The notes below the pieces were generated by a model. The model was not told the origin of the DNA and did no database searches. It saw only the letters and a list, made by a program, of their open reading frames with translations. Both the position numbers and the translations under genes were made by a program. Below are positions 13,043 to 40,055 of a DNA stretch of 40,108 bases, in pieces. Each line of letters begins with the position of its first letter. Positions within the stretch are counted from its first letter, which is position 1. Source of the DNA: Herbinix sp. (lineage in GTDB: Bacteria > Bacillota > Clostridia > Lachnospirales > Lachnospiraceae); the NCBI GenBank assembly GCA_029239235.1, contig JAQZBD010000005.1:1-40108 (forward strand), given 5' to 3'.

Positions 13043-13120
13043 AAAACCTCCATCTCTCGATTAACAATTGCTTTGTAACTATCAATGGTATCAATCTAAA
13101 ATATCATTTATAACAAAATA

Positions 13121-13161
13121 AGAGACAGCCTAAACGGTTGTACTCCACTTAAGCTGTCTCT
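13121..13161 (-). terminator. Terminator between the DUF2877 gene and the glycerate kinase gene
   Basis: AGAGACAGC...GCTGTCTCT hairpin; on minus strand followed by TATTTTGTT. Confidence 0.65.
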
Positions 13162-13245
13162 CATGCTTCTAGCTAATAAGCTGCATGAACTCCTTAAACT
13201 GGTGGAAATACCGCCGGATTAGGTAACTCAACATCAGTATTAATA

Positions 13246-14196: not shown

Positions 14197-14209
14197 CGCT
14201 TCAATTTTA

Positions 14210-15391: not shown

Positions 15392-15453
15392 ACAATATAA
15401 TACCCCTTTCATTTTTATATCTTCTATTGATATGTTTTCTGCTTATATGCCTC

Positions 15454-15633
15454 TTATATACCACCTAAAGCCTCTAATATTGCAATCATTTCCTTGTCTC
15501 CACCGGCCAGAGGCTTCCAGTCCACTTGAATAACCTCTGCTCCCTGCTTTCTTACTGCATCACCGAACATTTTGGGGCCAATATTAACAACTACTAATTC
15601 ACTTTTAAAAAGCTCATCTATTTTATTTTGCAT
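15454..15633 (-). CDS. Small conserved-looking protein (59 aa) between FdrA and the AckA-like gene
   Basis: Not in ORF track (<60 aa). MQNKIDELFKSELVVVNIGPKMFGDAVRKQGAEVIQVDWKPLAGGDKEMIAILEALGGI*; tight operon spacing; GAGGGCTTAAGT upstream of ATG. Confidence 0.75.
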   Translation of the reverse strand: MQNKIDELFKSELVVVNIGPKMFGDAVRKQGAEVIQVDWKPLAGGDKEMIAILEALGGI

Positions 15634-15635
15634 AC

Positions 15636-17183
15636 TTAAGCCCTCCTCATTTTGCTCTTGATCATTTTTCCAGCAAGTAAAGCCGCCTGATAATTATCGT
15701 GGCAAACTATTACGCCTGCCTCTCTAAGCATTTCTTGTTGAAGGGAACGTTTCTGTGGATCAGCCTCGGTACCGCATACTGATGCAACGACTGCTAGTTT
15801 GCCACCGCGGTCACTTACGATTTTCATGGCTTCTTTTATATTGTTAATGACTGAACCAACGGGATCACTATTGACTGCAGGACCCAAAACGAAGTCAAGT
15901 AACATTACTGCCGTTTCAGGATCATTTGCTTCACGTATAATACCCATTGCTCTTGGTTCAGTGTCAATAACAGGGTGAGGACGGCTCATGGTAAACTCTT
16001 CATCACCGTAATCAACCACAGAGTTTTTATAGCTAACGGTAGCTTTCCCAAGCTTGAATTCCTCGCTCAAAGGAGCGTTGGAATAGATATCTCCAATATC
16101 TTCTCTCATAGCAACCATTGCTTCTTCAACAAAAGTTCCTCCACAGAAAAGTCCTCGTACATATTTTTGTTCCTTGGACATAGCTGTTGCATGCGCATCT
16201 GCTAACTCTTGGACTTTTTCCGGATCAGCTTCCTCCAGGACTATTCCTGCAAGACTTAATGCCTTCCGTGCTGCGGCCTCCAGATTATGAGCATATACAG
16301 CTCCCGACTTAAGAATCTCTTCCTTTTCACATCCCATGAAACAAATAATTACTGGTTTAACACATTTGGCCACCCTGTCTAATACGCTTTCAAGAGATTT
16401 ACTTTCCGGTTTTCGGGATATGAGAACAATTACTTTAGTTTCCTCATCTTTTTCCAGCGCATCAATACCAGAAAGCATAGTAAGTCCTCCGACTTTATCC
16501 TTTAAGTCCTTACCTCCGGTACCAATACCCTGTGAAATACCGCTTCCTGCTTCATGTACCAGTACTGAAACCTCCTGAAGTCCCACTCCTGATGCTGCAC
16601 AGATACCAATTGGTCCTTTTCTTACGATACTGCCCACTAAGAAGGATTTGCCATTAATATTAGCTACTCCGCAGTCAGGTCCCATGCAAAGAAGACCTTT
16701 TTCCTGCGCAAGAAGTTTTATTTCTCTCTCATCCTCAAGCGGTACATTATCACTGAATATCAATGTATGCAGACCCGAATTCAGTGCTTTAATTGCCTCT
16801 GCCTTCGCATATTCTCCAGGCACAGAGATTATGCAAAGGTTGGCTTTATTATTTGCCTGCACAGCAGATTTCACACTGGAATATGACGTTTTATCTTCGA
16901 CTGCAGCGCCCTCAGCTTTTAACAAGGCCTGAGCTTCCTCAATCGCTTGATCGCAGGTCGCTTGGTCTAGCGCACTAACGCCGATAATCATATCATTTGG
17001 ACCAGCTTCCCCTACAGATTTACTGTTCATACCGATATCTATAAAAATTTCCTTATTCGCTTGTGTACCCATTGCTACTAAAACAGTTGTAATTCCCTGT
17101 TTTTTCTTTAATGCAGAAGTGATAAACATCAACTGCACCGAGTCATAATATTGATTTGGATATACCTTAATTACAGATTCCAT
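15636..17183 (-). CDS. fdrA: FdrA-like protein (acyl-CoA synthetase/succinyl-CoA ligase alpha-like; AllF-like)
   Basis: Start MESVIKVYPNQYYDSVQLM behind GGGGG; ICAASGVGLQEVSVLVHEAGSGISQGIGTGGKDL; MLLDFVLGPAVNSDPVG. ORF track start 17276 overlaps upstream gene. Confidence 0.88.
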   Translation of the reverse strand: MESVIKVYPNQYYDSVQLMFITSALKKKQGITTVLVAMGTQANKEIFIDIGMNSKSVGEAGPNDMIIGVSALDQATCDQAIEEAQALLKAEGAAVEDKTSYSSVKSAVQANNKANLCIISVPGEYAKAEAIKALNSGLHTLIFSDNVPLEDEREIKLLAQEKGLLCMGPDCGVANINGKSFLVGSIVRKGPIGICAASGVGLQEVSVLVHEAGSGISQGIGTGGKDLKDKVGGLTMLSGIDALEKDEETKVIVLISRKPESKSLESVLDRVAKCVKPVIICFMGCEKEEILKSGAVYAHNLEAAARKALSLAGIVLEEADPEKVQELADAHATAMSKEQKYVRGLFCGGTFVEEAMVAMREDIGDIYSNAPLSEEFKLGKATVSYKNSVVDYGDEEFTMSRPHPVIDTEPRAMGIIREANDPETAVMLLDFVLGPAVNSDPVGSVINNIKEAMKIVSDRGGKLAVVASVCGTEADPQKRSLQQEMLREAGVIVCHDNYQAALLAGKMIKSKMRRA

Positions 17184-17187
17184 TTCA

Positions 17188-18441
17188 TTACCCCCTAACC
17201 AATTCATAAAAAGCTCTGAGTCCCTGTTTAAAACAATCCATTGGGACGAGCATTGAGCCTGCTCCGCCTTGCCCACCTACTAATCTAGCTGACCCTCCAT
17301 GGCTAGTCGGCGTAATATTTGTGGCAACTACCTTACGCATGTCAATTCCCACCGGGAAGCCACGGTAATCATCCCAAGGTATCGGTGCAAACAGATGCTC
17401 TCCCAGAGACACTTCTCTTGCATCCTCTGTTCTCTTTTTGGCATCTGCGAAGGATCCTCCTGTGAGTCTTACAAATGCCGGAGATGCTATGGCGGAAAAG
17501 CCTCCCAAGCCATAGATTTCCGTCACACAGCTGTCACCAAGATATCCTGCCAGATCCGCTTCTGTCCAGGATGGGTTTAACAGCTGCCCCAGTATCTTAG
17601 GTGCTGGTACAGAAAACCATTGCTTTCCGGTTCCTGCGAACTGCAGCCCAAACTCTGTTCCATTTCCACCCATGGCTACCATTACAGTGGACATTGGTAC
17701 GTTTCTAGCTGTTTCCAGAATTCCCATGGTACCTGCCATCATAACATGCAGGAAGGATCTATCATTAGCGGCAAATGCTCGAATTACGTCATCACGCTGT
17801 TCAATTTTAAGCTCCAGCAATGCAGGTATCAATTCTAATATCAGAGCCGAGGAGGAAGCTGGCTGGCGCACGTGGTTCTCATCTCCCATACCTGCAGTAC
17901 GTGCTAAAATCGTCTTCATGTTGATTCCACCCATACTTCTGACCGCTTCCCCAAGTGCGGGACCAAATACATCTCGAAACCAGGAAAGATCCTTTTCAAC
18001 ATCTTCATCATAAAACCCCCAACGGAGACATTTCGGGTTCGGCCCCGGATGAATAGAAGCATAGCCCACACCTCCGAAGACTGTATCCTTACCTACGATA
18101 ACAGGCATGGAGGCACTGATTACCGTAACAGCAGCACAGGACGCATTATAATCCTGAGCAGGTTTTATTGCTACCTCACCTGTTTTAATCATTTCCCAAG
18201 CTGCATCCATCGTGCTTGCTAAGCCTTCATGTATAATCGAACCACAGAGGGAGGTTCTTAATGTAGGCACAATATCATTCACATCCTCGAAGGGAGGACC
18301 TGGATGAAGCAGCATATTTTTTTCAAAGCCAGGAATAATCTCCCCTGCTGGTTTAACATCCACCCAGGTCGGTTGGCTGTTTAGAAGGATATCAATGACT
18401 TTTTCATTGGCTTTTTCTATTTGTTCTCTAATTGCATTCAT
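17188..18441 (-). CDS. DUF1116 domain-containing protein (YlbE/AllG-like)
   Basis: 417 aa; ANEKVIDILLNSQPTWVDVKPAGEIIPGFEKNMLLHPGPPF; HVMMAGTMGILETARNVPMSTVMVAMGGNGTEFGLQFAG; adjacent to fdrA. Confidence 0.88.
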   Translation of the reverse strand: MNAIREQIEKANEKVIDILLNSQPTWVDVKPAGEIIPGFEKNMLLHPGPPFEDVNDIVPTLRTSLCGSIIHEGLASTMDAAWEMIKTGEVAIKPAQDYNASCAAVTVISASMPVIVGKDTVFGGVGYASIHPGPNPKCLRWGFYDEDVEKDLSWFRDVFGPALGEAVRSMGGINMKTILARTAGMGDENHVRQPASSSALILELIPALLELKIEQRDDVIRAFAANDRSFLHVMMAGTMGILETARNVPMSTVMVAMGGNGTEFGLQFAGTGKQWFSVPAPKILGQLLNPSWTEADLAGYLGDSCVTEIYGLGGFSAIASPAFVRLTGGSFADAKKRTEDAREVSLGEHLFAPIPWDDYRGFPVGIDMRKVVATNITPTSHGGSARLVGGQGGAGSMLVPMDCFKQGLRAFYELVRG

Positions 18442-18451
18442 TGTTTTTCAG

Positions 18452-18655
18452 TCCTTTCACATTGTTAAAGTATTTCCTTATAACAATCGACAATTTATTT
18501 CTGTACCTTTGGATAAACTGTATGTAGCATTCATTGTAAAGTATTCCGAAATTAATTAACAACCAATATCTTGTTGTCAGGAAAAAAATATTGCTCCATT
18601 TTTTTTACAAAACAATAATATGATTATTTTCACAAAAATACGATCTTTTAATATG
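18452..18655 (-). promoter_or_regulatory. Upstream regulatory region of DUF1116-fdrA operon, copy 2 of the duplicated promoter region
   Basis: Aligns with 8591-8787. Minus strand: TTTACA (18535-18540), 17 nt, TTTATC (18512-18517). Confidence 0.75.
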
Positions 18656-18676
18656 TTTTGCAAGATACAAAAATTT

Positions 18677-18708
18677 CAGAGCTTCCGCTTGTTGCTGCAG
18701 AAGCTCTG
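18677..18708 (-). terminator. Terminator downstream of the GarR-like gene
   Basis: CAGAGCTTC...GAAGCTCTG hairpin; on minus strand followed by AAATTTTTG. Confidence 0.7.
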
Positions 18709-18767
18709 TTACTGCCGTCGGCGACACAGCTACTATATGTTGCATAAAATATACAATACTCCTGTAA

Positions 18768-19649
18768 TTAATATATTGTATCACCGGCCATTTTTTCGTA
18801 GAACTTAGCTATGGCGCTATGATCAGACTGCCCCAAGCCATCCTTATGAAGGTTCTGCAGCATTTCCATAACCATAACGCTAAGCGGTATTGGTGCCCCG
18901 GTGGCATGAGCAGTTTCAATTGCGTTATTCAAATCTTTTATGTGAAGATCAATCTTGAAACCAGGTTGAGTGTTATTGGCAAGCATCATAGTACCTTTCG
19001 CATTCATGACTGTGCTTCCAGCCAGTCCGCCTTTAATAGCTTCATATACTTTGTTCGGATCCACACCAGCCCTTTTAGCTAGCATAAAAGCTTCAGATAC
19101 TGCGGCGATATTGACGGCAACAATAACCTGATTAGCCAGTTTGGTGGTATTACCCGCACCCGCTTCTCCGCAATATACAATGTCGGATCCCATACAGTTG
19201 AGGACAGGTACACATTCCTCGAACAGTTTTTGGTCACCACCGCACATAATTGAAAGTGTCCCGTCTATGGCTTTTGGTTCACCACCACTTACTGGTGCCT
19301 CCAACATTCTGACCCCTTTTATTGCACATTCCCTTGAAATCTCCTGGGATGCCAAGGGTGCTATGGAACTCATATCAATCAGTACCAGCCCTTCTTTGGC
19401 TGCGGAAAGTATTCCATTTACACCACAGACAACCTCTTTTACGTTGGGTGAATTCGGTAACATAGTGATAATGATATCATTGTTGCGAGCAAGTTCTGCA
19501 CCACTTGCAGCCGTTTTTGCGCCTTCATTAACAAGCATCGCTATATTTTCTTTATTCATATCGTTTACTGTAAGTTCATGTCCTGCCTGGATAAGGTTTT
19601 TTGCCATTGGCTTCCCCATAATTCCAAGTCCTATAAATCCTATTTTCAT
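18768..19649 (-). CDS. 2-hydroxy-3-oxopropionate (tartronate semialdehyde) reductase / 3-hydroxyisobutyrate dehydrogenase family
   Basis: MKIGFIGLGIMGKPMAKNLIQAGH; IDMSSIAPLASQEIS; LEAPVSGGEPKAIDGTLSIMCGG; GNTTKLANQVIVAVNIAAVSEA; closely resembles GarR/GlxR. Confidence 0.92.
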   Translation of the reverse strand: MKIGFIGLGIMGKPMAKNLIQAGHELTVNDMNKENIAMLVNEGAKTAASGAELARNNDIIITMLPNSPNVKEVVCGVNGILSAAKEGLVLIDMSSIAPLASQEISRECAIKGVRMLEAPVSGGEPKAIDGTLSIMCGGDQKLFEECVPVLNCMGSDIVYCGEAGAGNTTKLANQVIVAVNIAAVSEAFMLAKRAGVDPNKVYEAIKGGLAGSTVMNAKGTMMLANNTQPGFKIDLHIKDLNNAIETAHATGAPIPLSVMVMEMLQNLHKDGLGQSDHSAIAKFYEKMAGDTIY

Positions 19650-19790: not shown

Positions 19791-21794
19791 TTAAAATAAT
19801 ACATTGATAGCTTCTATCTCACCAAGCCTGTCAATTCGAAAATGAACATAACCCTCTTTCCATATAAAAGGAATACTTTTCTTGGTTACTAGTGACTTAA
19901 GTTCAGATGGCTCCTTATTCAAAGCAACTCTAAGATTGATATCCCGAACTTCAACCGGTTCAAAAAATGAACATCCAAAATGTCCCGTTCCATTGATAAG
20001 ATGTATCATTGCATGTGTTCCGCTCATATCATAACCGCGCGTTACCTCAATCATCGGAGTGAATGCAGTATCCTCTGCCGTCTCCAAACCTGCAAAATTC
20101 TTCATAAGATCCTTCATAAAAAAGAATGTATTATCATATCCTTCGAGATGATATACCTTACCGGGTAACCACGGGATATGTATTGCCTTCCCTTTTCCAT
20201 ATGAATTAACTGTAAAGCCTGGCAGATCTGTAACCTGTGTATAATAGCACTGTTCAGGAGGTCCAAACATATGAGGCGGAATCAGTCGCAAATACTTCTC
20301 TGCTTTTTCGTCATACTGCACATAGATATACTCATCTCCAAAATATATAACTTTTGTTTCAGGAAGAGAAGGGAACTTCTGCTGCTCTGAATTTCTCAAT
20401 TCAAACATGGCTGATTTCATATCGTTCCTGTAATAAATGATTTTTTTAGCACCAATGCTTTCAAATGCTATATTACTGCGCTCATTGCCCTCTTCATCGT
20501 AACGGCCTGTCTGTCCGGTTATTATTAAACAGCCACCGTTTCTAACGTATTCATCCATAATCATTTTGAGTTCATTTGAAATTGTTTGCATATCTGCGAA
20601 AATCACGGTTTTAAACCTTTCAATGTCCGCTAGCGAGGTTATATGATCAGGGTCAGACTCCTCGAATAGGATATGACTTTCTGTAAGAGCACGAATCCAT
20701 CCGCACGCTTCAAAGGAAGAGATATATCTTGCACATCTTATCAGAAGTGCATCACCGCTAATCTGCATGTTTTTATAGATATCGTTATTTTCAGACATGT
20801 ATTTAAAAGCTCTTTGTACACGTACATACCCACTCTTATCTTGATGATTATCAAGCCGTCCCATCACATAATAATCAAGACCTATATAATTCGCCACATC
20901 CTGCCACATTCGAAGAGACTGCATATTGGGACTTACCGCCACATGCCTATAATAAAATCCAATAAATTCTGTCGCTGCATTGCTGCATACCTTGAAAGGC
21001 TTAAGTGATTTCTCACATCTGGCCACGGAAGAAGAGTTATACATCCACTGTGGCTCCTTACGCGGATACTCGGTTCCGGACTCGATTCTGGAGAAATCAA
21101 TTCCGTCTACAGCGATCTGCGAATTAATCGATTTAAGCATGTCATACATTCGCCTCTGAATTGACTTTGTAATGACCTTTTGGAAGATTTTATACTTTCT
21201 ATATACGATGTCATTCATATCTTCCTTATCAGGGAGCTCCAGCCCAAATTGTTCCTTGAAAAGTTTCTTACAATTATCACAATGGCAGATATCATAATAA
21301 TTATAGCTATAGTCCATCTGCCGAAATCCTCCCATATTCATGAAGACACCGTCAATTGGCAGCCTGTTTGCTGCTTCTTTCATAATCTCAAATACCATTT
21401 CCTGAAGATATCCTCCGCAAGGACACATATGGACATTGCCATTATAGTCTATAATCTCGCCCTTCATCGATCGATATGCCCAATCAGGATGCTTCTCATA
21501 TACCGGTCTTCTCACCTTGGAGAAATCCATTCTTGCAATTATCTTAATGTCAGCTTTATGACATTCATCCATAATCTTCTCAAGTGAATCCCCGGTAAGA
21601 TGCTCACTGATTGTATGATCTTCAATGTCCGAAGGATAGCTTGCCAGAATTCCTCCGGTGTTGATCATCACTACTGTTGCACCAAAATCCTTTAGTTGCT
21701 TAATATACTGTCCTGCATCAATATCGATCATATCGATTTCTCTCAAGTTTGTCTGTATCAGCCTCCATGGCCTTTCATTCCACCAATTACCCAT
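19791..21794 (-). CDS. Putative glycoside hydrolase (hypothetical glycosyl hydrolase 6 / alpha-amylase-superfamily-like), paralogue 1
   Basis: 667 aa; TIM-barrel-like N-terminus (VVMINTGGILASYPS; IKIIARMDFSKVRRPVYEKHPDWAYRS; IDGVFMNMGG), CHCDNC motif, ThuA-like middle region. Confidence 0.65.
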   Translation of the reverse strand: MGNWWNERPWRLIQTNLREIDMIDIDAGQYIKQLKDFGATVVMINTGGILASYPSDIEDHTISEHLTGDSLEKIMDECHKADIKIIARMDFSKVRRPVYEKHPDWAYRSMKGEIIDYNGNVHMCPCGGYLQEMVFEIMKEAANRLPIDGVFMNMGGFRQMDYSYNYYDICHCDNCKKLFKEQFGLELPDKEDMNDIVYRKYKIFQKVITKSIQRRMYDMLKSINSQIAVDGIDFSRIESGTEYPRKEPQWMYNSSSVARCEKSLKPFKVCSNAATEFIGFYYRHVAVSPNMQSLRMWQDVANYIGLDYYVMGRLDNHQDKSGYVRVQRAFKYMSENNDIYKNMQISGDALLIRCARYISSFEACGWIRALTESHILFEESDPDHITSLADIERFKTVIFADMQTISNELKMIMDEYVRNGGCLIITGQTGRYDEEGNERSNIAFESIGAKKIIYYRNDMKSAMFELRNSEQQKFPSLPETKVIYFGDEYIYVQYDEKAEKYLRLIPPHMFGPPEQCYYTQVTDLPGFTVNSYGKGKAIHIPWLPGKVYHLEGYDNTFFFMKDLMKNFAGLETAEDTAFTPMIEVTRGYDMSGTHAMIHLINGTGHFGCSFFEPVEVRDINLRVALNKEPSELKSLVTKKSIPFIWKEGYVHFRIDRLGEIEAINVLF

Positions 21795-21837: not shown

Positions 21838-23424
21838 TTACAATACCGAGCGATGATTATTCCTTTTATACTCACTGGGTTTTACACCCATACGTCTTTC
21901 AAACATCTTATTAAAATGGTTGGGGTCAGAATATCCAACCATTTCACAGATTTCATAAATATTCAAGTTGGTTTCTTCAAGAAGCCTCATGGCCCGGCTG
22001 ATCCGTAAACCGGTAATATAGCTATGATATGTTTCTCCGGTTTTCCTTTTAAAGAGCTGACTGAAATAATAAGGATTAATATAAAAACGTTCCGATATAT
22101 CATTAAGACTTATTTTTTTATTAAAGTTTTTATCTATATATTCCTTCGCTTTTGTCACCACGTCTTGTTTTTCCGGTATGTTTTCCTTCAGCATCAACTC
22201 ATTCATGCTCTTTATCGTATTGATAATCCAATTCTTTAATTGTTCAATGGTTTGAAATTTAGCAATACTCTCCAGTGATAGTATGTTCCTTCCCAGGTAT
22301 TCATTTAACTGGAACTGCATAAACGGCATTTTTCTAATTCCCGTTAGGACAAGATTCAGACTTAATAGCTGTAGATCTCCCGGAGTCAAGTCCTTTTCCT
22401 TTTCAACTTTATAGAATATCTCTTCAATTATCTGACGACAGCCTTTATCATCCATCCTATCAATGCAGGCTTCCAGCTTCTTCACATCCTCAGATTCTAT
22501 CAGTTTGGGGGCGGCCGTAATTCTCCTTATTTCCTCATAGCTGATGATGCAGTCCGGACCTTTAATCACCTTATAGTTTAAGGCACACCTGGCCTCCTCA
22601 AAAGATTCTCTGATTTCTTCTATTTTATGGTGTGTCAGACCTGCGCCTCCGCTCACTGAAACTCCGATTTTCTCTGCCAGCTCCAGCCGAAACCTACCCG
22701 CAGCATTTAACAAATGCCTGTAATCCGCTTCTTTATCAAAAGCCAGTATAACAACCGCCATGGAACCAGAATAAGGAATTACAATTCTTGATTTACTGAA
22801 ATAGAAATACTTGTCTGCCAATTCTACAATATTTTGGTGAAAATTTTTTTCTGTTTCCTGCTGACCCGCTCTGCTATATTCCAGAACAATGCAGTTGTAC
22901 CATTGACACATGACCGGAAATCCCAAATTCCCAAGGCGGCTTTTCTTTTTCTCAATTTCCGACCCTGACAATTCCAGAATATCTTTCAGCATATACTCTT
23001 TCATAGAATGTTCCATTTCCAAAGCCAGCTCACTCTTTTTCCTAGATTCCAAAATGGAATTACAGGATTTCCTGAGTACGGAACATAACTCATCTTCCTC
23101 CACGGGCTTCGTAATGTAATCTTCTACCCCTAGCACCATGGCACTTCTGGCGTATTTAAATTCTGCATATCCGCTTAGTATAATAAACCGAGCCGGATTG
23201 CCGGCTTCTTTTAACCTGCGTATCATTTCGATTCCATCGCATTCCGGCATACGTATATCGGTTAGTACAATGTGTGGAGTCAGTTCCATTGCCTTTTTAT
23301 ATCCCTGTAATCCATCAAAAGCCAGATCTACCACCCGGCACTCCGGCACCATCCGCTCGATCAGAAATTTAAGTCCCTCTGCAATTAAAGATTCATCATC
23401 CACCACCAATACCTCATATATCAT
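21838..23424 (-). CDS. Response regulator with AraC-type output domain (YesN-like)
   Basis: Receiver VLVVDDESLIAEGLKFLI...VLTDIRMPECDGIEMI...YITKPVEEDEL; C-terminal AraC HTH NPYYFSQLFKRKTGETYHSYI...YSDPNHFNKMFERRMGVKPSEYKR. Confidence 0.95.
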   Translation of the reverse strand: MIYEVLVVDDESLIAEGLKFLIERMVPECRVVDLAFDGLQGYKKAMELTPHIVLTDIRMPECDGIEMIRRLKEAGNPARFIILSGYAEFKYARSAMVLGVEDYITKPVEEDELCSVLRKSCNSILESRKKSELALEMEHSMKEYMLKDILELSGSEIEKKKSRLGNLGFPVMCQWYNCIVLEYSRAGQQETEKNFHQNIVELADKYFYFSKSRIVIPYSGSMAVVILAFDKEADYRHLLNAAGRFRLELAEKIGVSVSGGAGLTHHKIEEIRESFEEARCALNYKVIKGPDCIISYEEIRRITAAPKLIESEDVKKLEACIDRMDDKGCRQIIEEIFYKVEKEKDLTPGDLQLLSLNLVLTGIRKMPFMQFQLNEYLGRNILSLESIAKFQTIEQLKNWIINTIKSMNELMLKENIPEKQDVVTKAKEYIDKNFNKKISLNDISERFYINPYYFSQLFKRKTGETYHSYITGLRISRAMRLLEETNLNIYEICEMVGYSDPNHFNKMFERRMGVKPSEYKRNNHRSVL

Positions 23425-23456: not shown

Positions 23457-25247
23457 TTACCCCGGTATTAAGATTTCTATCACGGTACCTTTCTCTGTAC
23501 TGTCTGCTATTCTTAAATAAGATCCGCTACCATAATGGAGTTTAATCCGCTCTGCGATATTCTTCAAACCAATGCTTGTTTCCCGTTCTTCCTGCACCAC
23601 CTCCACTGATAACCAATCAGAATCTGCCATAATAATCAAGTTGTTGATTTCTTTCACCCGCTCTGGAAGCATACCCTTCCCATCATCACTGATTTGGAGA
23701 AGTATATTCTGTTCCTGTGTTACAGTTCCTTTTAAAGCAATATGAAGTGGTGTATTATATCCTTTGAACCCATGCTCAATGCTATTCTCAATAACAGGCT
23801 GCAGTACCATCGAAATAATCGAGGAGTTCAAAATCCGTTCTTCTAAATCCACACTGAAGGAAAACATATTATAAAAACGCATATTCTGCAGTTTTACATA
23901 ATTCTCTACATAACCGACCTCATCTTTTATCAAATTGGGGGTGGTCTGTTTACTGAGAGCATTTCGAAACATTTTCGCAAGAATTTTAATCATTTCTGCA
24001 ACTTCATCATCCCCATTTACCAGTGCCTTCATTCGAATAGAGTCCAGTGTGTTATAAAGCATATGAGGATTAATCTGGGTCTGAAGGGCTAAAAATTTTG
24101 CATTTTTTTGCTTGATTTCAGCTATATAGACATCCTCAATCAATGTTTTAATTTTCATAACCATGTGGTTATAGCTAGTTACCAGATTGCCAATTTCATC
24201 ATTTGACTCTTTTTGAAGCAATACCTTATATTGGCCTTGCTCTACCTGCTTCATTCGCTGCTGCATCTTTCTGATAGGCTTTGTTATCGTCCGGCTGAAC
24301 AAGGAAGAGATTATCACAACAATTACAATACATACCAGTAGGGCAAAGACTGTTGCATAACCGATTTTATTGATCTTAAACAAAAGGTCACTCCGTGGAA
24401 TCACAGCATTGATTTTTAATCCTCCCCGCTTTGTTTCATTGGTCAAGATCAGATAATCATCGGCTTTCTTATGAAACAGGAAAGGATTCTCCAAACTCTG
24501 TGCCTCTTCCCATGTAATCCTTCCACTTGCTACATCAGAGTCATACAAGATGCTGTTGTAAGCATCCGTAATGCTGATTTTTATATTATAATTATTTCGA
24601 GCCAGAAGAAAACCGTCACTTAAGGAAATCAAACTAGAAGGCTCTAAATCAATTAAAAGAACGCCTACATAAGCACCTCCATTGTTAAAAATTTGTCTTC
24701 CTACCGTTAACGTGATTCCATCTGAATTTCTGTCATAATAAGATCTGTCATGTATTGAAGTAATTGTCAGATTATCCTTTGCCTTCATGATTCTATCCAG
24801 CCAAACCTGGTCCTTCAAACTTTGAACATCCACATTTGCCCCATCAGTATTAAAGTGATAAAGACGATCCTGTTTCGTTAAGAAAATGATCCCCTTAATT
24901 TCCGGTTTCAGAGTCGTCAGACGTAACATGATCTTTCGCAAAATAAGCTGTCTATTCACTTGATCTAATACAGAAGAATCCATGTTGTCACCTAGCTCGT
25001 AAATGATATCATTATCCACGAGTATCGATTTTGTTACCTTATCATATTCCTCAATAAAATCATCAATATTTGTAACGATTTGAGAACTGAAGGCTGAAGC
25101 AAATTCCAATGAAGACTCTTCAAGGTTATCAGCCGATACCTTATAGATAATCAGACTCATTGCCAAAAGGGGGACAAGACATGCCAAAAGATAGCTCAAT
25201 ATTAGTTTTTTGCCTATTTTCATGTCCCTGAATACTCCTTTTCTCAT
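23457..25247 (-). CDS. Sensor histidine kinase (YesM-like)
   Basis: N-terminal TM, dCache-like sensor, HAMP, FLALQTQINPHMLYNTLDSIRM, VLQPVIENSIEHG, DDGKGM. Confidence 0.95.
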   Translation of the reverse strand: MRKGVFRDMKIGKKLILSYLLACLVPLLAMSLIIYKVSADNLEESSLEFASAFSSQIVTNIDDFIEEYDKVTKSILVDNDIIYELGDNMDSSVLDQVNRQLILRKIMLRLTTLKPEIKGIIFLTKQDRLYHFNTDGANVDVQSLKDQVWLDRIMKAKDNLTITSIHDRSYYDRNSDGITLTVGRQIFNNGGAYVGVLLIDLEPSSLISLSDGFLLARNNYNIKISITDAYNSILYDSDVASGRITWEEAQSLENPFLFHKKADDYLILTNETKRGGLKINAVIPRSDLLFKINKIGYATVFALLVCIVIVVIISSLFSRTITKPIRKMQQRMKQVEQGQYKVLLQKESNDEIGNLVTSYNHMVMKIKTLIEDVYIAEIKQKNAKFLALQTQINPHMLYNTLDSIRMKALVNGDDEVAEMIKILAKMFRNALSKQTTPNLIKDEVGYVENYVKLQNMRFYNMFSFSVDLEERILNSSIISMVLQPVIENSIEHGFKGYNTPLHIALKGTVTQEQNILLQISDDGKGMLPERVKEINNLIIMADSDWLSVEVVQEERETSIGLKNIAERIKLHYGSGSYLRIADSTEKGTVIEILIPG

Positions 25248-25326
25248 CTTGCCCTCCCTTATAAAGCATATTTATAATAAATCCAAGCAGCAAGGAATTG
25301 CTCCCCGCTGCCCGGATGACATCTTA

Positions 25327-26916
25327 TTATTGTTGCGTTTTCGCATACCATTCTCTGGCTGCCTTTGTCACCTCTTCTCCGCCGGAAGCATTCCATTTTT
25401 CTACGAATTCATCAAATTTATCAATGGAATATTCTCCAGTAATGATTCTAGATGCGTATTCCACATACAGAGTCCTATTCATTATGTCAGGATGCCCTTC
25501 ATAAACACTGCTTGGTATACCATTACCAGCAATCAATTTGCCATATTCAGGCATTTTCGCCAAATTGGCGACGCTCATATCGACAGACCATGAAGTATCA
25601 TCCGTTCTAATGTTTTCTAATAGCTGAGTAACGCTTTCTACTGTGGATATGTCAGTTCCCGGCTGTAAAAGCAGATTTTCCATGGTTTTTTTATCATCCG
25701 GAAGTCTTCTAAGCTTTCCGTCTACCATTTCGGAATGCATCCCTTCTACACCAAGGAAGAATTTCTGCCATAAATCCTTATTGCCATATGCATCAAGCAC
25801 TTTCATACAAGCATCAATTTTTTCCTGGTCATCGGTATTCTTAACGACCCACTGGATACCCTTGCTCTTTTGCTCTGTGTAAAATCCTTCATACCCCGGT
25901 GCACTGATGGGTGGCATCACTACCAAGTTTGGCTTCGCGCCTGTTGCATTATAGATTGATTCTGCCTTTTGATTTGTTGTTTGTGCCCAATGATAGTATA
26001 CCCCAACCTGATTCGAAGCAATCTTACCTTCCCAGCCAGCTTTATCATTTAACAGTGTTTCCTGATCCATAAGCCCTTCCTTGTATAACTCACTCATAAA
26101 CTGAAGAGCATCTTTCATATTTTTAGTCACAGCAGAATAGGTCAGTTCTCCGTCATAAATATCCCACTGTGGATTTCCTTCCCACATAGCAATTCCATAC
26201 ATGGAAAATAAATGATCCATCCATCTAGCTTCCTGACGTCCGCCGGTAGGAATTTCATCTGCTTGTCCATTCCCATTTGGATCTTGGGTTTTAAACGCCC
26301 TCAGTACATTTACAAACTCTTCCTGTGTCTTGGGCATGGGTAATCCCAGCTTATCAAGCCAATCCTGTCGGATAATACCGCCGCTCACCGGATAATCAAC
26401 CACATTGGGAATCATATAGATTCTGCCTTTTCCGCTTGGATCGTAGGAACGGATTACATCCCAGGCCTCCTTCGGAATTGATTCCCATAAATGGGGAGCC
26501 TTTTCCGGTAAGAGATCTGTTAAATCAAGAAGTGCTCCGTTCTTAACCAGATCAACTTCCATACCATTGACAGGAAGAAAGATATCAGGCATTTCCCCAG
26601 AGACAATTTTCAAATTTAACTGCTCCTGATAAGTAGTTCCACCATTCCATTCCACATAAGGAGAAACGATTCCCACACCAGTCAGATCCTTATAAAAATT
26701 GTACAAGGCTCCACCTTTTTTCACTTCTAAGAATCCTTCGTTAATGTACCACATTTCTAAATCCACTGTCTTTTCCGCCTCGGCACCACTTTCCTCTGTC
26801 TTACCTGTAGATCCTGGCTCTGATGTTTCCTTCCCCGTTCCCTTTGAACATCCTGTCAAAGCTGACAGTGTCATCACACCAACCAGAACCAGCGCAATTA
26901 GTTTGTTCCGTTTCAT
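25327..26916 (-). CDS. Extracellular sugar-binding lipoprotein (ABC transporter SBP), paralogue 1
   Basis: Lipobox LSALTGCSKG; 529 aa LipO-like SBP; upstream of YesMN, downstream of permeases. Confidence 0.93.
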   Translation of the reverse strand: MKRNKLIALVLVGVMTLSALTGCSKGTGKETSEPGSTGKTEESGAEAEKTVDLEMWYINEGFLEVKKGGALYNFYKDLTGVGIVSPYVEWNGGTTYQEQLNLKIVSGEMPDIFLPVNGMEVDLVKNGALLDLTDLLPEKAPHLWESIPKEAWDVIRSYDPSGKGRIYMIPNVVDYPVSGGIIRQDWLDKLGLPMPKTQEEFVNVLRAFKTQDPNGNGQADEIPTGGRQEARWMDHLFSMYGIAMWEGNPQWDIYDGELTYSAVTKNMKDALQFMSELYKEGLMDQETLLNDKAGWEGKIASNQVGVYYHWAQTTNQKAESIYNATGAKPNLVVMPPISAPGYEGFYTEQKSKGIQWVVKNTDDQEKIDACMKVLDAYGNKDLWQKFFLGVEGMHSEMVDGKLRRLPDDKKTMENLLLQPGTDISTVESVTQLLENIRTDDTSWSVDMSVANLAKMPEYGKLIAGNGIPSSVYEGHPDIMNRTLYVEYASRIITGEYSIDKFDEFVEKWNASGGEEVTKAAREWYAKTQQ

Positions 26917-26988
26917 TTCATAAACCTCCCTTGATTTATTATATCATTATCTTTGATACCCTACACTATATTTTACCATCTTGCGATT

Positions 26989-27861
26989 TTATCCTTTTAC
27001 AGATCCCAGCATGGCCCCCTTGGCAAAATACTTAAGAAGCCATGGATAAACTGCTATAATAGGAATAATGGCAAATACTACCGTCGCTGCGCTTAATGTA
27101 TTTTCCGTATAGTTTACATTGTTCACTGCCACTATATTAGCAAACTCACTTCCTCCGTTGATTAATTGCCTTATCTTTAATTGCAGTGGAAACAGATCCG
27201 TTTTCTGTATAAACATGACTGGAGTCTGAAACTGATTCCATATTGTCACTGCATAAAACAATCCTACGGTTGCAAGAACCGCCTTAGAGGACGGGAGAAC
27301 AATCTTATAAAGAATTTGGAAACACCCACAACCATCAATCATGGCTGCTTCCTCTACTTCCACCGGAAACTGTTTAAAAAAGGTTCTCATGATAGCAAGA
27401 TTATAAGCACTCAAAATATGAGGTAAAATTAGCACCAGCGGATTATTAAGCAAACCCATTCCCTTAACGGTTAAGAAATATGGAACGACAGGAGCTTTAA
27501 AAATCATGGTGATTATGACCATAACCATTAAAAACCGACCTAATTTGAAATCCGCTTTCGATAGAGGATACGCCATCAAAGCCGTAACCATCAGACCAAG
27601 CATTGTACCGATAACCGTAGTGACGAGACTGATGAAAAACGCTCTCCAAAGCCCTAGATCTGATAATATGTACTTCCATGAATCAAATGTAAAACCAACA
27701 GGCAGCAAATTTATAATATTCATATCTGAAGCCACCTTAGAACTGAGGGATCTAGCAAGTACCGTAAGAAAAGGGATTAGTGCAATCATTCCCAAGATAC
27801 CAAGAATCAAGGTTATAACCCCTTGAAAAACCCGGTCTTTTATTGATTCTTTCATTACCAT
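26989..27861 (-). CDS. Carbohydrate ABC transporter permease (YtcP/MalG-like)
   Basis: 290 aa membrane protein; EEAAMIDGCGCFQILYKIVLPSSKAVLATVGLFYAVTIWN EAA motif. Confidence 0.93.
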   Translation of the reverse strand: MVMKESIKDRVFQGVITLILGILGMIALIPFLTVLARSLSSKVASDMNIINLLPVGFTFDSWKYILSDLGLWRAFFISLVTTVIGTMLGLMVTALMAYPLSKADFKLGRFLMVMVIITMIFKAPVVPYFLTVKGMGLLNNPLVLILPHILSAYNLAIMRTFFKQFPVEVEEAAMIDGCGCFQILYKIVLPSSKAVLATVGLFYAVTIWNQFQTPVMFIQKTDLFPLQLKIRQLINGGSEFANIVAVNNVNYTENTLSAATVVFAIIPIIAVYPWLLKYFAKGAMLGSVKG

Positions 27862-28826
27862 AATCCTCCGTCATCTGAATATTTTTTAGCTAGTTTATTA
27901 AATGTCAATACAAGAATTAGACCGATGGTTGACTGGAATAATCCTACTGCTGTTGTAAAGCTGTATCGTGCCTGCTGGATTCCAACACGATAAACATAGG
28001 TATCGAATATATCCCCAACACTGTAAGTCATCGGTGTCAAAAGGTTATAAACCTGTTCAAATCCCAGTTCAAGAAAACTTCCGATGCTAAGAAGGAATAA
28101 AGTTAGGACTGCCGGAATGATAAGCGGAAAAGTAATATGTTTCATTCTTGCAAATCTCGAAGCACCATCAATTGCAGACGATTCATAGAGCGATGGATCA
28201 ATTCCACTGATGGCGGCCAAATAAACTACAGTTCCCCAGCCTGCTTCCTTCCAAATAGAAGATATTATATAAATGGGGCGAAACCAAGATTCTTTCTGCA
28301 TCGCCAACAGAGTATCAAGACCAAAGAAATTTCGTATATTGTTAAAAAGACCACCCACTCCAAATATATCAAATACCAGTCCCCCGACAATTACCCAAGA
28401 GAGAAAGTATGGAACATATACCGCCGTCTGTATTATCTTTTTCACTTTTAGGTTTTTTACCTCATTCAACATTAAAGACAATATCACCGGTATGGGAAAT
28501 ATTAAAACTGTCTTACATAATCCCAGTACCAGTGTGTTGGTAAAAATCCGAATAAAATCAGGATATGTAATCAATGCCTTAAAATTCTTTAAACCAACCC
28601 AGTCACTGCCGACGAAACCTTTAAAAACGGAGTAATCCTGGAATGCAATCATGCTTCCCAGCATGGGAATGTATTTGAACCCTAAAAAGAATATGACACC
28701 TGGGAGTACCATTACATAATAAGGCCAGTATTTCTTCATATTGCTGATTAGACTAGTTTTTTTCTTAGGCGGCGGCGCTGAAGCTACCGCTGCTACTTTT
28801 CCTTTTGTCATCTTAAAAACCTCCAA
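27855..28826 (-). CDS. ABC transporter permease (LplB-like)
   Basis: YYVMVLPGVIFFLGFKYIPMLGSMIAFQDYSVFKG; YESSAIDGASRFARMKHITFPLIIPAVLTLFLLSIG. Confidence 0.93.
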   Translation of the reverse strand: MEVFKMTKGKVAAVASAPPPKKKTSLISNMKKYWPYYVMVLPGVIFFLGFKYIPMLGSMIAFQDYSVFKGFVGSDWVGLKNFKALITYPDFIRIFTNTLVLGLCKTVLIFPIPVILSLMLNEVKNLKVKKIIQTAVYVPYFLSWVIVGGLVFDIFGVGGLFNNIRNFFGLDTLLAMQKESWFRPIYIISSIWKEAGWGTVVYLAAISGIDPSLYESSAIDGASRFARMKHITFPLIIPAVLTLFLLSIGSFLELGFEQVYNLLTPMTYSVGDIFDTYVYRVGIQQARYSFTTAVGLFQSTIGLILVLTFNKLAKKYSDDGGLW

Positions 28827-28927
28827 CTCTTAATTTAAAATCTCTGCAACTCTTTACATTCATTATCTCATTTTCATACTGAATCTCAATGGAGTGTTTT
28901 TATATATTTCCATGTCTTTTTTTAGAT
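28823..28927 (-). repeat. Promoter-proximal segment of the lplB operon, homologous to 37598-37703
   Basis: CCAACTCTTA..TTTAAAA..CAACT.TTTACA...ATTATCTCATTTT.ATACT.AATC.CAATGG.GT.TTTTTATATATTTC.ATG.CTTTTTTTAGAT shared by both. Confidence 0.75.
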
Positions 28928-28961
28928 ATCTTATTGATCAGAATGAATTTATAGCCATTCA

Positions 28962-34786: not shown

Positions 34787-35776
34787 CTATTTGCCAAAAA
34801 TGTCACACTTGCACAATTGATTTAGCATGGGTTTATCTTCTTTGTATCTCCTGATATTTTCAGTTATGATTTCAAGTGAACGCCCCGTCCTGTCAGGTAC
34901 TTGAGGTGTGACATGTGGTGTTATAATAGTATTCGGCGCATCCCATAATGGATTGTCTGCCAACAGCGGTTCCTGTTCAAAAGTGTCTAGTCCTGCTCCT
35001 GCAATCCAGCCATTCTTAAGTGCATTTATTAATGCTCTTTCCTCTATGACGGCCCCTCTTGCTATATTGATCAGATAAGCAGATGATTTCATTAATTTCA
35101 ACTCACGTTCCGATATTAAATGGTAAGATTCATTCGAAAGTGGCAATGCCAATACAACGAAATCGCTAAGTTTAAGAAGTTCATCGATAGAATCACCTGA
35201 ATCCTTGTAATACAGCTTATCAACACCTGCTGGTATTTCGTTCCTATGTCGTTTGTAACCGAGGACATTCATACCAAGAGCCTTTGCCCGTACAGCAAGG
35301 TCCCTACCGGTATTGCCCATTCCGACTATGCCTATTGTCCTTCCAAAAAGACATCTTAGGGAATCACGTAATTCATAATCGGTAACGTAGTTATGTTCCA
35401 GCTGTGCTTTATAAAATAAAGGAAATGAAAAAGTAAAGGATAACATAAAATAAAGCGCATGCTCTGCAAGTGCTGGGGCTGACCGTCCGGCGGAACCTGT
35501 TATAATCAGATCTTTATCTAACACTTCCTGCCTTGCAATCCTGTTTAAGCCTGCATGGTCATAATGTATCCATTTTATATTGGGCGCATTTAGAACCCGT
35601 TCATCCCGGTCGGTACCCAAAACCGCTACATCAACACTCTTTAATGCTTCTGCGATACCTTCCATATCATCAACCCTAAGATGAATAAATTCAGCCGGTT
35701 CAAAAATTTCCTTAAGTTTTTTTACATGTTCTTCATCATATAAAACCGTTGACAAAACTTTTTCAATTTTAGCCAT
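34787..35776 (-). CDS. D-2-hydroxyacid dehydrogenase (NAD-binding)
   Basis: TIGIVGMGNTGRDLAVRAKALGMNVLGYKR; LINIARGAVIEERALINALKNGWIAGAGLDTFEQEPL; ITPHVTPQVPDRT. AAGGAG favours ATG at 35776. Confidence 0.93.
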   Translation of the reverse strand: MAKIEKVLSTVLYDEEHVKKLKEIFEPAEFIHLRVDDMEGIAEALKSVDVAVLGTDRDERVLNAPNIKWIHYDHAGLNRIARQEVLDKDLIITGSAGRSAPALAEHALYFMLSFTFSFPLFYKAQLEHNYVTDYELRDSLRCLFGRTIGIVGMGNTGRDLAVRAKALGMNVLGYKRHRNEIPAGVDKLYYKDSGDSIDELLKLSDFVVLALPLSNESYHLISERELKLMKSSAYLINIARGAVIEERALINALKNGWIAGAGLDTFEQEPLLADNPLWDAPNTIITPHVTPQVPDRTGRSLEIITENIRRYKEDKPMLNQLCKCDIFGK

Positions 35777-35821
35777 TTTTTTCACTCCTTGTAGATACTT
35801 TATCTTTTATGTGGGTATTTT

Positions 35822-35879: not shown

Positions 35880-37469
35880 TTATTGTTGCGTTTTCGCATA
35901 CCATTCTCTGGCTGCTTTTGTCACCGCTTCTCCGCCGGAAGCATACCACTTTTCTACGAATTCATCGAATTTATCAATGGTATATTCTCCTGTAATGATC
36001 TTAGACGCGTATTCCACATACAGGGTTCTGTTCATAATATCAGGATATCCTTCATAAACACTATTCGGTATACCATCTCCAGCAATTACCCTTCCATATT
36101 CAGGCATTTTAGACAAATTTTCAACTGCCATATCAACAGACCACGCCGTCTCATCCGTTCTAACAGCTTCCAATAGCTGGGTAACACCTTCTACTGTTGA
36201 AATATCCTTCGCAGGCAATAATAACAGATTTTCCATGGTCTTCTTATCTTCCGGTAGAAGCTTTAACTCTCCGTCCACCATTTCGGAGTGCATTCCTTCT
36301 ACACCAAGGAAGAACTTCAGCCATAAATCCTTATTTCCATATGCGTCAAGTACTTTCATACAGGCGTCAATTCTTTCCTGATCATCGGTATTCTTAACAA
36401 TCCATTGGATACCTTTGCTCTTTTTCTCTGTATAAAATCCTTCATATCCCGGTGCACTGATGGGCGGCACTACTACCAAGTTTGGTTTCACTCCTGTTGC
36501 ATTAAATATTGCGTCTGCTTTTTGATTAATTGTAAATGCATTATGGAAGTACTCTCCAACCTGATTTGAAGAAAGCTTTCCTTCCCAAGCCGATTTATCA
36601 TTTAACAGAGTTTCCTGATCCATAAGCCCTTCCTTGTATATCTCGCTCATAAACTGAAGTGCATCTTTCATATTCTGAGTCACCCCTGAATAGGTCAGTT
36701 CCCCGTTGTAAATATCCCACTGGGGATTTCCTTCCCACATAGCAATTCCATACATGGAAAATAAATGATCCATCCATCTGGCCTCCTGGCGTCCACCGGT
36801 AGGAATTTCATCTGCCTGACCGTTCCCATTTGGATCCTTTGTTTTAAATGCACGAAGAACATTTACATACTCTTCCTGAGTCTTTGGCATGGACAATCCC
36901 AGGTTATCTAGCCAATCCTGTCGTATAATCCCGCCACTCATCGGATAATCAACCACAGTGGGAATCATATAGATTCTGCCTTCTCCACTTGGATCGTAGG
37001 AACGGATTACATCCCAGACCTCCTCCGGAATTGCTTCCCATAAATGGGGAGCCTTTTCCGGCAAGAGATCTGTTAAATCAAGAAGCGCATCGTTCTTAAT
37101 CAGATCTGTTTCCATACCATTAACCGGAAGAAAGATATCAGGCATTTCCCCAGAGACAATTCTTAAATTTAACTGCTCCTGATATGTAGTTCCACCATTC
37201 CATTCCACATAGGGAGAAAAGAGTCCCACTCCGATTATATCCTTATAAAAGTTGTACAAAGCTCCACCCTTTTTCACTTCCAGAAAGCCATCATTAACAT
37301 TCCAGATTTCCAAATCCACTGTCTCTGCAGTGGCAGAACCACCTTCCGTAGTTTTACTTGTAGGTTCTGTTCCTGATGTTTCCTTGCCCGCTCCTTTTGA
37401 ACATCCTGCTAATGTGGATAAAGTCATCACACCAACAAGCACAAGAGCAATTATTTTGTTCCATTTCAT
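35880..37469 (-). CDS. Extracellular sugar-binding lipoprotein (ABC transporter SBP), paralogue 2 (orphan)
   Basis: 529 aa, collinear with 25327-26916 and roughly 80-90% identical by eye; lipobox LSTLAGCSKG; no adjacent permease genes. Confidence 0.93.
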   Translation of the reverse strand: MKWNKIIALVLVGVMTLSTLAGCSKGAGKETSGTEPTSKTTEGGSATAETVDLEIWNVNDGFLEVKKGGALYNFYKDIIGVGLFSPYVEWNGGTTYQEQLNLRIVSGEMPDIFLPVNGMETDLIKNDALLDLTDLLPEKAPHLWEAIPEEVWDVIRSYDPSGEGRIYMIPTVVDYPMSGGIIRQDWLDNLGLSMPKTQEEYVNVLRAFKTKDPNGNGQADEIPTGGRQEARWMDHLFSMYGIAMWEGNPQWDIYNGELTYSGVTQNMKDALQFMSEIYKEGLMDQETLLNDKSAWEGKLSSNQVGEYFHNAFTINQKADAIFNATGVKPNLVVVPPISAPGYEGFYTEKKSKGIQWIVKNTDDQERIDACMKVLDAYGNKDLWLKFFLGVEGMHSEMVDGELKLLPEDKKTMENLLLLPAKDISTVEGVTQLLEAVRTDETAWSVDMAVENLSKMPEYGRVIAGDGIPNSVYEGYPDIMNRTLYVEYASKIITGEYTIDKFDEFVEKWYASGGEAVTKAAREWYAKTQQ

Positions 37470-37703
37470 TTCGTAAACCTCCCTTGATTTTTTATATCAT
37501 TTTTTTGATACCCTCCACTATATTTTTCCGCTTCCCACTTGTTTTCAAAACCTGCTAGGTAGTCGTCTGCATTCACTATAAGAAAGCTGTTTCCCTTCCA
37601 ACTCTTACCTTTAAAACTTTACAACTTTTTACACTTATTATCTCATTTTTATACTTAATCACAATGGGGTCTTTTTTATATATTTCAATGGCTTTTTTTA
37701 GAT
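37470..37703 (-). promoter_or_regulatory. Chimeric upstream region of the orphan SBP
   Basis: 37470-37530 matches the sequence just upstream of SBP1 (26917-26978); 37598-37703 matches the upstream region of lplB (28823-28927). Confidence 0.7.
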
Positions 37704-37841
37704 TGTGTTATTTATCAGAAAGATTATTAAATATGTTCAAAGGTACATGCATGCAAATACCCCCATGCCAAAATAGCAGAAAAATTAAATGTAAACTGAA
37801 GTTACTTACTGGTCCAAAGATCACGCCGTAATAAGCAAAAT

Positions 37842-38012: not shown

Positions 38013-40055
38013 TTACGATGCCGATTCTGGTAGTATTTTGATTGCCTCGAATAAACCGAGCTGCCCGATTTTGACTGTCACATAACCGTTGTTTACTTCG
38101 TAACTGCAGTTCTTACCAGTGACCAGACTGGTAACAGATTCCGGAAATCCTCCATAGGAAACCTCTATTTCAATATCATGCATTGTAATAGGGGCAAAGT
38201 ACGAGTTTCCCGTATAACCTGAGCTATTTATCAAATGTACATATATGGCTGATTGATCTTTCTTTTCCATAACAGTTACTTCTACCATTGGAGAAAGCTC
38301 TCCTCCAATCGGTTTTATTTCCAATTCTGTTTCTAAAAAGTCAGCAATAAAATTAGTCAGGTTCAAAAATCCATTTTCAGAAAATTCCTTGCCGGGTTCC
38401 CAAGGGATATATACTCCCCTCCCTTTGCCGTAAGCATTTACGGTAAAGCCCGGGTAATCTGACACAGTTTTATAATAAGCTCTCTCCGGAGGGGCATACA
38501 TATGTGGTTCAATTAAATTCAAATGCATCTCTACATCCTTTTCATAGTCTACATAGATATAACTGCCGCGAACATAAACCAGTTCCGTATTAGTTAATCT
38601 GGGATATTTATCTCTATCCGCAATTTTTATATAGGATGAACGCATATCAGAACATATTCTATCGATCTTTTTGATACCCAGTGATTTGATAATCGGTTTA
38701 TCCAGCAATTCCTCAGAACGATCATATAAACCAGTACTTCCTACAGAAATTACTGTCCCTCCCTCTTTCACAAAAGCATCAATCTGAGTGGCAAATTCTT
38801 CACTTATATATTTGATGTCCGGAAGTATTATGACCTTATATTTATTTAATTGAAGGGATTCTGTGGATTTTACAATAAGTGAATCAAACACAAAATGATT
38901 TTCCACTAAAAAATTGTACCATCCACGGTACTCCGATTTTTTTCTAAGAAGTTGAAGAGGAGCGTTTATCTGGATTAAAGCAATATCCGCAGTGGAAACC
39001 AGATTCCGGTACTCCTCTTCATTTTGTGCGTGATATTGATAAATCCTTTTTACCGGCTCATGTCCCGATTTATCAGCATGCGTATCCAGCCTCCCTATTA
39101 CGAAATAGTCAATGGAACCACCATTAGCCAGACTCTGTGATAAACGCAGCTCTTGTTGATATGGTGAAACAGCAACGTGACGATATGGTGTGTCAATAAA
39201 ATCTACGGAAGCAATATCTATGACATCCGCCATGCCGGAACCTACCGCCGTCTTCGCAAGTGCCGAAGCATTGTATTGCCAATTCGGCATCATCTCATTG
39301 AAAGAAGTATTAGCCTCGATTCTCATAAAATTTTGTTTATCGATGAAGATATCCGGTTTAACTGCTCCTATAGAATCCATCATTCTTGAATGGTACTCTC
39401 TCAAGGTTCTTTCTTGGAATAATGCATATTTCTGATATGCTTCATCCTTATTATCCGGATTCTTTGGTAATTCCATGCCGTACATCTCCATAAACCTCTG
39501 TCTGCAGCCCTCGCATTGGCATATTCCCTGCCAGCCGTTGGCATAATCCATACCGGACATATAACCTCCCATGTTCAGATAAATGCCGTCAATATCAAGC
39601 TCCCTGATTGTTTCCTTTATTATCTCAAATGCATATTCCTGTTGATATTTACTGTTAAAGCACACGTGTGTATCGCCATTGCAGTTAATGGTTTTGCCTT
39701 TAGGACTTATATACGCCCATTCAGGATTCTTATCATAGATTGGTTTACGAACTTTTGTAAAATCCATTCTTCCAATAACTTTTATGTTGGCATTATGACA
39801 TGCAGCTACAATATCTTTAAGGCTATCCCCTTTCAAATAAGGGCTTTGGAAATGATAAGGCAGTTTGGTATCATAGCTTGCTATGATACCGGATGTGTTG
39901 ATCATTACAACATCAGCTTTGAATTTTTTAAGTTCATCAACGTAGCTGTCAGCTTTTATGTCAAGCATATCTGTTTCCCGCAAACAGGTTTGAATCATAC
40001 GTAACGTTTTATTTTGCCACCATTTCTTGCTTTTAATAATTATATCGTTGTCCAT
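38013..40055 (-). CDS. Putative glycoside hydrolase (hypothetical glycosyl hydrolase 6-like), paralogue 2
   Basis: 680 aa; WWQNKTLRMIQTCLRETDMLDIKADSYVDELKKFKADVVMINTSGIIASYDT and CQCEGCRQRFMEMYGMELP, collinear with 19791-21794. Confidence 0.65.
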   Translation of the reverse strand: MDNDIIIKSKKWWQNKTLRMIQTCLRETDMLDIKADSYVDELKKFKADVVMINTSGIIASYDTKLPYHFQSPYLKGDSLKDIVAACHNANIKVIGRMDFTKVRKPIYDKNPEWAYISPKGKTINCNGDTHVCFNSKYQQEYAFEIIKETIRELDIDGIYLNMGGYMSGMDYANGWQGICQCEGCRQRFMEMYGMELPKNPDNKDEAYQKYALFQERTLREYHSRMMDSIGAVKPDIFIDKQNFMRIEANTSFNEMMPNWQYNASALAKTAVGSGMADVIDIASVDFIDTPYRHVAVSPYQQELRLSQSLANGGSIDYFVIGRLDTHADKSGHEPVKRIYQYHAQNEEEYRNLVSTADIALIQINAPLQLLRKKSEYRGWYNFLVENHFVFDSLIVKSTESLQLNKYKVIILPDIKYISEEFATQIDAFVKEGGTVISVGSTGLYDRSEELLDKPIIKSLGIKKIDRICSDMRSSYIKIADRDKYPRLTNTELVYVRGSYIYVDYEKDVEMHLNLIEPHMYAPPERAYYKTVSDYPGFTVNAYGKGRGVYIPWEPGKEFSENGFLNLTNFIADFLETELEIKPIGGELSPMVEVTVMEKKDQSAIYVHLINSSGYTGNSYFAPITMHDIEIEVSYGGFPESVTSLVTGKNCSYEVNNGYVTVKIGQLGLFEAIKILPESAS

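Follow-up and report, generated by a model that had tools for sequence, protein, structure and literature searches.

The window, by which we mean the whole 40,108-nucleotide stretch of a Herbinix sp. contig analysed here, carries two genes for closely related extracellular solute-binding proteins (SBPs) whose products share 84% amino acid identity. SBP1 is the binding protein of an operon that also encodes LplB- and YtcP-type permeases, with genes for a sensor histidine kinase and an AraC-type response regulator alongside, and SBP2 stands alone, with a D-2-hydroxyacid dehydrogenase gene on its downstream side (Table 1). A strong stem-loop (25281-25317; 17 pairs and a T-rich tail) lies between SBP1 and the kinase gene. 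We found no counterpart of it, and no terminator-like site, between SBP2 and the dehydrogenase gene, which is possibly co-transcribed with SBP2.

Table 1. Features of the two SBP loci, in window coordinates
Feature	Position	Strand	Remarks
AraC-type response regulator	21838..23424	-	Pfam Response_reg + HTH_18; presumed activator of both promoters
Sensor histidine kinase, dCache-HAMP-His_kinase	23457..25247	-	Pfam; syntenic in L028, L062, L063, L064
SBP1, binding protein of the operon	25327..26916	-	
YtcP-type permease	26989..27861	-	Pfam BPD_transp_1
LplB-type permease	27855..28826	-	Pfam BPD_transp_1
Parental operator/promoter block upstream of lplB	28822..28946	-	Half-sites 28925-28892; predicted promoter TTGAGA-N16-GATAAT 28889-28862
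D-2-hydroxyacid dehydrogenase	34787..35785	-	Pfam; 94 bp downstream of SBP2
SBP2, solo Cluster-G-type extracellular solute-binding lipoprotein	35880..37469	-	529 aa
SBP-type leader with ribosome-binding site	37470..37528	-	Homologous to ytcP-SBP1 intergenic leader, 26917-26976
Junction in place of lplB and ytcP	37529..37597	-	69 bp; no detectable source
Retained operator/promoter block	37597..37723	-	Homologous to 28822-28946 upstream of lplB
Predicted SBP2 promoter	37637..37664	-	TTGTGA-N16-GATAAT
Tandem operator	37668..37701	-	Two direct half-sites, CTAAAAAAAGCCA and TATAAAAAAGACC

Glycosidase-like proteins of the GHL6/GH42M type are encoded both downstream of the regulator gene (19791-21794) and upstream of SBP2 (38013-40055), the two sharing 40% identity, and a GH43 gene at 30262 is syntenic in two related loci (L062 and L064). 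In another related locus (L057), homologues of both GHL6 and the dehydrogenase (41%) are found near the transporter. From the linked GH43, the GHL6 pair and the dehydrogenase we infer that plant cell-wall oligosaccharides may be the substrate. Separately, 11906-19649 holds a cluster for an FdrA-like acyl-CoA synthetase, AllG- and AllH-type proteins, an acetate-kinase-family protein, glycerate kinase and tartronate semialdehyde reductase, which looks like an oxamate/allantoin-type or glycerate pathway.

When 34.5-38.2 kb of the window is compared with 24.5-29.7 kb by BLASTN, two collinear matches emerge. One joins SBP2 and its leader to SBP1 and its leader (85.3% over 1653 columns, E 0) and stops, on the other side, at the SBP stop codon. 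The other joins the block farther upstream to the DNA preceding lplB (82.7% over 127 columns, E 9.5e-31). Local alignment gives the promoter block a score of 79.5, where 500 shuffles reach at most 21.5, and the leader a score of 47, where they reach at most 23. The preliminary description had claimed that the sequence directly upstream of SBP2 matches the SBP1 leader, which holds for the last ~60 bp (~53 of 60 aligned positions identical, by hand count), and that 37598-37703 matches 28823-28927, coordinates that prove right to ~1 base, with the match continuing ~20 bp further upstream. The 69-bp junction that separates the two pieces showed no match above shuffles to the window, the compared loci or permease genes by local alignment, blastn-short or tblastx. 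A short open frame on the minus strand at 37470-37580 (GTG AAT GCA GAC ... ACG AAA TGA) runs through the junction and the leader as far as the SBP2 start codon, which it overlaps; it may be chance.

Predicted promoters occupy the same position in the lplB and SBP2 blocks (TTGAGA and TTGTGA, respectively, 16 bases from GATAAT), and similar boxes lie upstream of lplB in L028 and L062. Just upstream of the predicted promoter and adjoining the -35 box are two half-sites of ~13 bp, CTTAAAAATGACC-like and arranged as direct repeats, whose starts are 20-23 bp apart, or about two helical turns; such a pair reaches p <= 0.005 versus shuffles in most promoters tested, those of SBP2 and the window lplB among them. 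The spacing from the second half-site to the -35 box is one base longer at SBP2 than at lplB. In the whole assembly the operator block occurs only twice, at these two promoters. A weight matrix did not detect the tandem operator in L029, L054, L056, L057, L064, L104, L114 and L117, so it is not universal among such operons. Given what is known of the AraC family and the position of the half-sites at the -35 box, the operon's own AraC-type response regulator would be the candidate to bind the tandem operator. Additional copies of the operator, in divergent promoters near two-component genes and elsewhere (L043 4236 (-), L055 4269 (-) and 4331 (+), L051 18322 (-), L032 4421 (-)), indicate a wider regulon in Paenibacillus.

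The ancestral arrangement can be read from relatives, of which a scan of genome contigs returned 30. Nearly all have the order lplB-ytcP-SBP with the kinase and regulator genes before or after it, and three have SBP-lplB-ytcP. The nearest, L028 of Hungatella sp. UBA5385 (Lachnospiraceae; the same place as L058 of G104), is a single operon lplB-ytcP-SBP-HK-RR (HK, histidine kinase; RR, response regulator). Its sequence upstream of lplB aligns with the two window copies at scores of 42.5 and 34 (shuffle maxima 22.5 and 21.5), and its ytcP-SBP gap with the two SBP leaders at 44 and 40.5 (shuffle maxima 18 and 19.5), so the promoter originally lay before lplB and the leader after ytcP. The order promoter-lplB-ytcP-SBP1 that had been proposed as original is thus borne out by a single-copy operon with homologous promoter and leader. 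A maximum-likelihood tree built from 41 SBPs groups SBP1 with SBP2 as sisters (bootstrap 100) and places L028 next (bootstrap 100); hence the duplication postdates the split from L028. The SBP2 branch is about twice as long as that of SBP1 (0.133 versus 0.068), a difference that is not significant by simple count (29 versus 17, p 0.10). The preliminary description had also proposed searching related strains for an intact second operon. The operon was found, in single copy, in L028, and neither a second operon nor a second SBP of the group was found in 33 congeneric and 397 family genomes, four of the latter having one SBP of the group each. A plasmid search gave no match of 60% identity or more. 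The second copy could be an internal duplication or an operon received from a close relative, and either fits the data.

The assembly, which is 93% complete, encodes 37 lplB-like permeases. After the window copy the best of them is 43% identical, making the window LplB the sole member of its close group, just as SBP1 and SBP2 are the only SBPs of theirs. The lplB and ytcP genes closest to SBP2 are ~7.1 kb away, beside their own SBP1, and none adjoins SBP2 on the contig, which ends at 40108, 2.6 kb upstream of SBP2. As for an intact permease pair just outside the window, a possibility raised in the preliminary description, the contig end leaves the rest of the assembly as the place to look, and no other lplB of this type is present there. 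The operon has no ATPase gene, as is expected of CUT1 systems that share an ATPase, and the assembly contains one OB_MalK-type ATPase match. The collinear matches, the polarity given by L028, the sister relationship of the SBPs and the lack of a second permease copy together argue that SBP2 is what remains of a duplicated operon after the loss of both permeases.

Comparable arrangements occur in Paenibacillus. We searched 105 Paenibacillaceae genomes, of which 23 were positive; of the 34 SBPs listed in them, we count three that have no adjacent permeases, and two more, in P. rigui, run into the ends of their contigs. The first of the three, in P. aestuarii (L040), is 83% identical to the operon copy of that species (L030) and has no permease match within 10 kb. 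It is preceded by the lplB operator/promoter (56 versus 15.5 for shuffles) and an SBP leader (29.5 versus 18.5), and between operator and SBP lies an lplB relic, 75 bp of which align to the L030 lplB (33 versus a shuffle maximum of 21.5; tblastx E 2e-6); the corresponding stretch of other lplB genes matches more weakly. In Paenibacillus 32352 the second SBP, which we call SBPb (L043 14613-16181; L113 14601-16169), lies beyond the operon SBP and a large open reading frame, and again has the lplB operator (49 versus 17.5 for shuffles) and a leader (31 versus 16). Read by eye, its operator equals that before P. rigui lplB over 54 nt. The two contig-edge SBPs of P. rigui each start just after the ytcP 3' end, are 94-95% identical to SBPb and group with it in the tree, and on these sequences we read P. 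rigui and 32352 as the states before and after permease loss. L040 and SBPb are both still under purifying selection (dN/dS 0.02-0.11), and each is accompanied in its genome by an intact permease pair of that group. Because they do not group together, the window and these two SBPs most likely record at least three separate events; some deeper Paenibacillus nodes are weakly supported. The third solo case, in the Paenibacillaceae genome G539 (C1:4351500-4359000; L152, L155), is an HK-RR-SBP cluster without either permease and without the lplB promoter, in which only a short gap separates the RR stop from the SBP start. The best lplB in that genome is 59% identical, which would suit an SBP that acts in sensing or works with a less closely related permease. 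In one further locus (L101, G471:C25) the complete unit operator-lplB-ytcP-SBP is present twice in tandem, and permease loss may start from such a state. The claim that SBP2 is an operon copy deprived of lplB and ytcP with its promoter kept thus gains support from the L028 polarity, the tree and these parallels.

The SBP2 frame is intact. Relative to SBP1, dN is 0.084 and dS 0.603 (NG86), a ratio of ~0.14 (0.13 by YN00), so SBP2 is, to judge from its codons, under purifying selection and not decaying. The upstream pieces also changed less than expected: at this dS, unconstrained DNA should be ~59% identical, and the promoter block is 83% identical (binomial P 5e-9) and the leader ~88% (P 5e-7, from a hand count of the alignment). 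The 69-bp junction, unlike both, has no similarity.

The AF2 model of SBP2 (pLDDT 85.6) has a Cluster G fold. Foldseek placed 5gx8, 1kwh and 5gub, followed by AlgQ1 and FusA, as the best PDB matches at a TM of ~0.65, a value that perhaps reflects different domain opening; by sequence, the relatives of SBP1 and SBP2 are AlgQ1/AlgQ2, Smon0123 and FusA. Both window proteins have a lipobox-like LxGC and the EF-hand-like calcium motif DPNGNG (D212-G217) that has been described for Cluster G binding proteins (PMC12710961). They differ at the predicted pocket. Trp310, present in SBP1 and in 33 of 39 relatives, aligns by profile with Trp284 of Smon0123, which packs on the bound disaccharide, and is Asn in SBP2. 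The change W310N is SBP2-derived, as are V306E, Y308F and Q312F, and G127D alters an otherwise invariant Gly; R227 (Smon0123 R204) and T313 (Smon0123 S287) are kept. Residues 293-312 contain seven SBP2-derived changes, a clustering that is suggestive (p 0.008 for a 20-residue window; 0.08, not significant, for a 7-residue window) and that SBP1 does not show. Given W310N and the derived changes around it, the ligand of SBP2 has likely changed.

On all of this, we think it probable that SBP2 descends from a permease-stripped operon copy and provides LplB-YtcP with a second, co-regulated binding protein whose pocket has changed. One could instead imagine SBP2 as a sensory protein that presents sugar to the dCache histidine kinase, or to the chemoreceptor encoded at 8822-10603, and does not feed a permease. 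The dCache-like sensor domain of the kinase would suit this role, G539 has retained a cluster of just this kind, and pectin-binding SPH1118, from the same group of papers as AlgQ1/AlgQ2, has a role in chemotaxis (PMC7055323, PMC9314435). However, the SBP2 gene is far from the kinase gene and keeps the transporter operator, and in both P. aestuarii and strain 32352 the genome with the solo SBP also encodes an intact permease pair of that group, so we regard a sensory role as unlikely. It is more doubtful still that SBP2 works with a different permease pair, encoded at another place in the genome or within the unassembled 7%. The contig end and the number of lplB-like permeases leave room for one, but the next lplB is only 43% identical whereas the two SBPs are 84% identical, the permease matches at C330 and C128 have SBP relatives nearby, and the loss of permeases from SBP2's own promoter would be needed anyway.

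The remaining alternatives concern how the locus arose and whether it still functions. Against a deletion counts the window's own junction, in which no permease relic is detectable, and an SBP-plus-leader copy might have landed beside an independently copied promoter. Two such separate events seem very improbable to us, as both pieces keep the order and orientation of the operon, and an lplB relic in P. aestuarii and the before-and-after pair of P. rigui and 32352 attest to deletion in other lineages. The idea that SBP2 is a functionless, decaying remnant could draw on its lost permeases and on the fact that the same arrangement occurs in none of the 33 congeneric genomes, yet it can hardly be reconciled with an intact 529-aa frame, a dN/dS of 0.13 at a dS of 0.6 and a promoter conserved above neutral expectation.

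Under the permease-stripping reading that we favour, a duplicated (or incoming second) copy of operator-lplB-ytcP-SBP, perhaps including HK-RR, would have lost lplB and ytcP, leaving the operator/promoter to drive SBP2 directly. The linked histidine kinase and AraC-type response regulator would most likely switch on both promoters together. SBP2, secreted and lipid-anchored like SBP1, would capture a related but different oligosaccharide and hand it to the sole LplB-YtcP pair, with energy supplied by a shared MalK/MsmX-type ATPase encoded elsewhere. Two binding proteins on one transporter would be consistent with co-regulation, purifying selection and the precedent of AlgQ1/AlgQ2.

Those two proteins of Sphingomonas sp. 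A1 deliver to a single ABC importer, AlgM1-AlgM2/AlgS (PMC7055323). They have the Cluster G fold of SBP2, are its best PDB relatives by sequence and are among the best by structure; organism and ligand differ, and here the sharing of permeases is our reading of the locus and one of the two copies has another residue in place of the pocket Trp. We know of no promoter scar for AlgQ1/AlgQ2. Smon0123, a GAG-binding protein of Streptobacillus moniliformis, has the same fold and pocket layout (R204, W284 and S287 corresponding to R227, W310 and T313), with SBP2 differing by the Asn at the Trp position. The parent type of both window copies is the lplB-ytcP-SBP operon with a linked two-component system of Lachnospiraceae and Paenibacillus, from which SBP2 differs in having no permeases and standing alone behind an lplB operator. 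Orphan SBPs that use remote transporters, their genes lying apart from the permeases as that of SBP2 does, have been described as common (PMC3223731, citing Thomas 2010, 'Homes for the orphans'). In comparison with the orphans as that citing paper presents them, the origin of SBP2 is legible in the DNA, as operator, deleted permeases and leader, and recurs in several lineages of one subfamily. Orphan SBPs and importers with several SBPs were thus known, and what is added here is a legible, repeated route with the parent operator retained.

Which importer an orphan binding protein serves is usually guesswork. For SBP2, both the partner transporter and the regulator are indicated by the operator it has kept, and its origin can be read from the scar. 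As the same event is readable in independent lineages, operator and leader signatures could help match orphan SBPs to their permeases. Separate losses of the same kind in soil Paenibacillus suggest that bacteria make extra binding proteins for an existing importer in this way. Whether the stripping of permeases from two-component-controlled lplB-ytcP-SBP operons is a recurrent route in Bacillota to co-expressed 'satellite' SBPs, each with the parent operator and a new ligand (gained in SBP2 by losing the sugar-stacking Trp), seems to us evenly balanced. If it is, an extra binding protein would widen the substrate range of one importer without new permeases.
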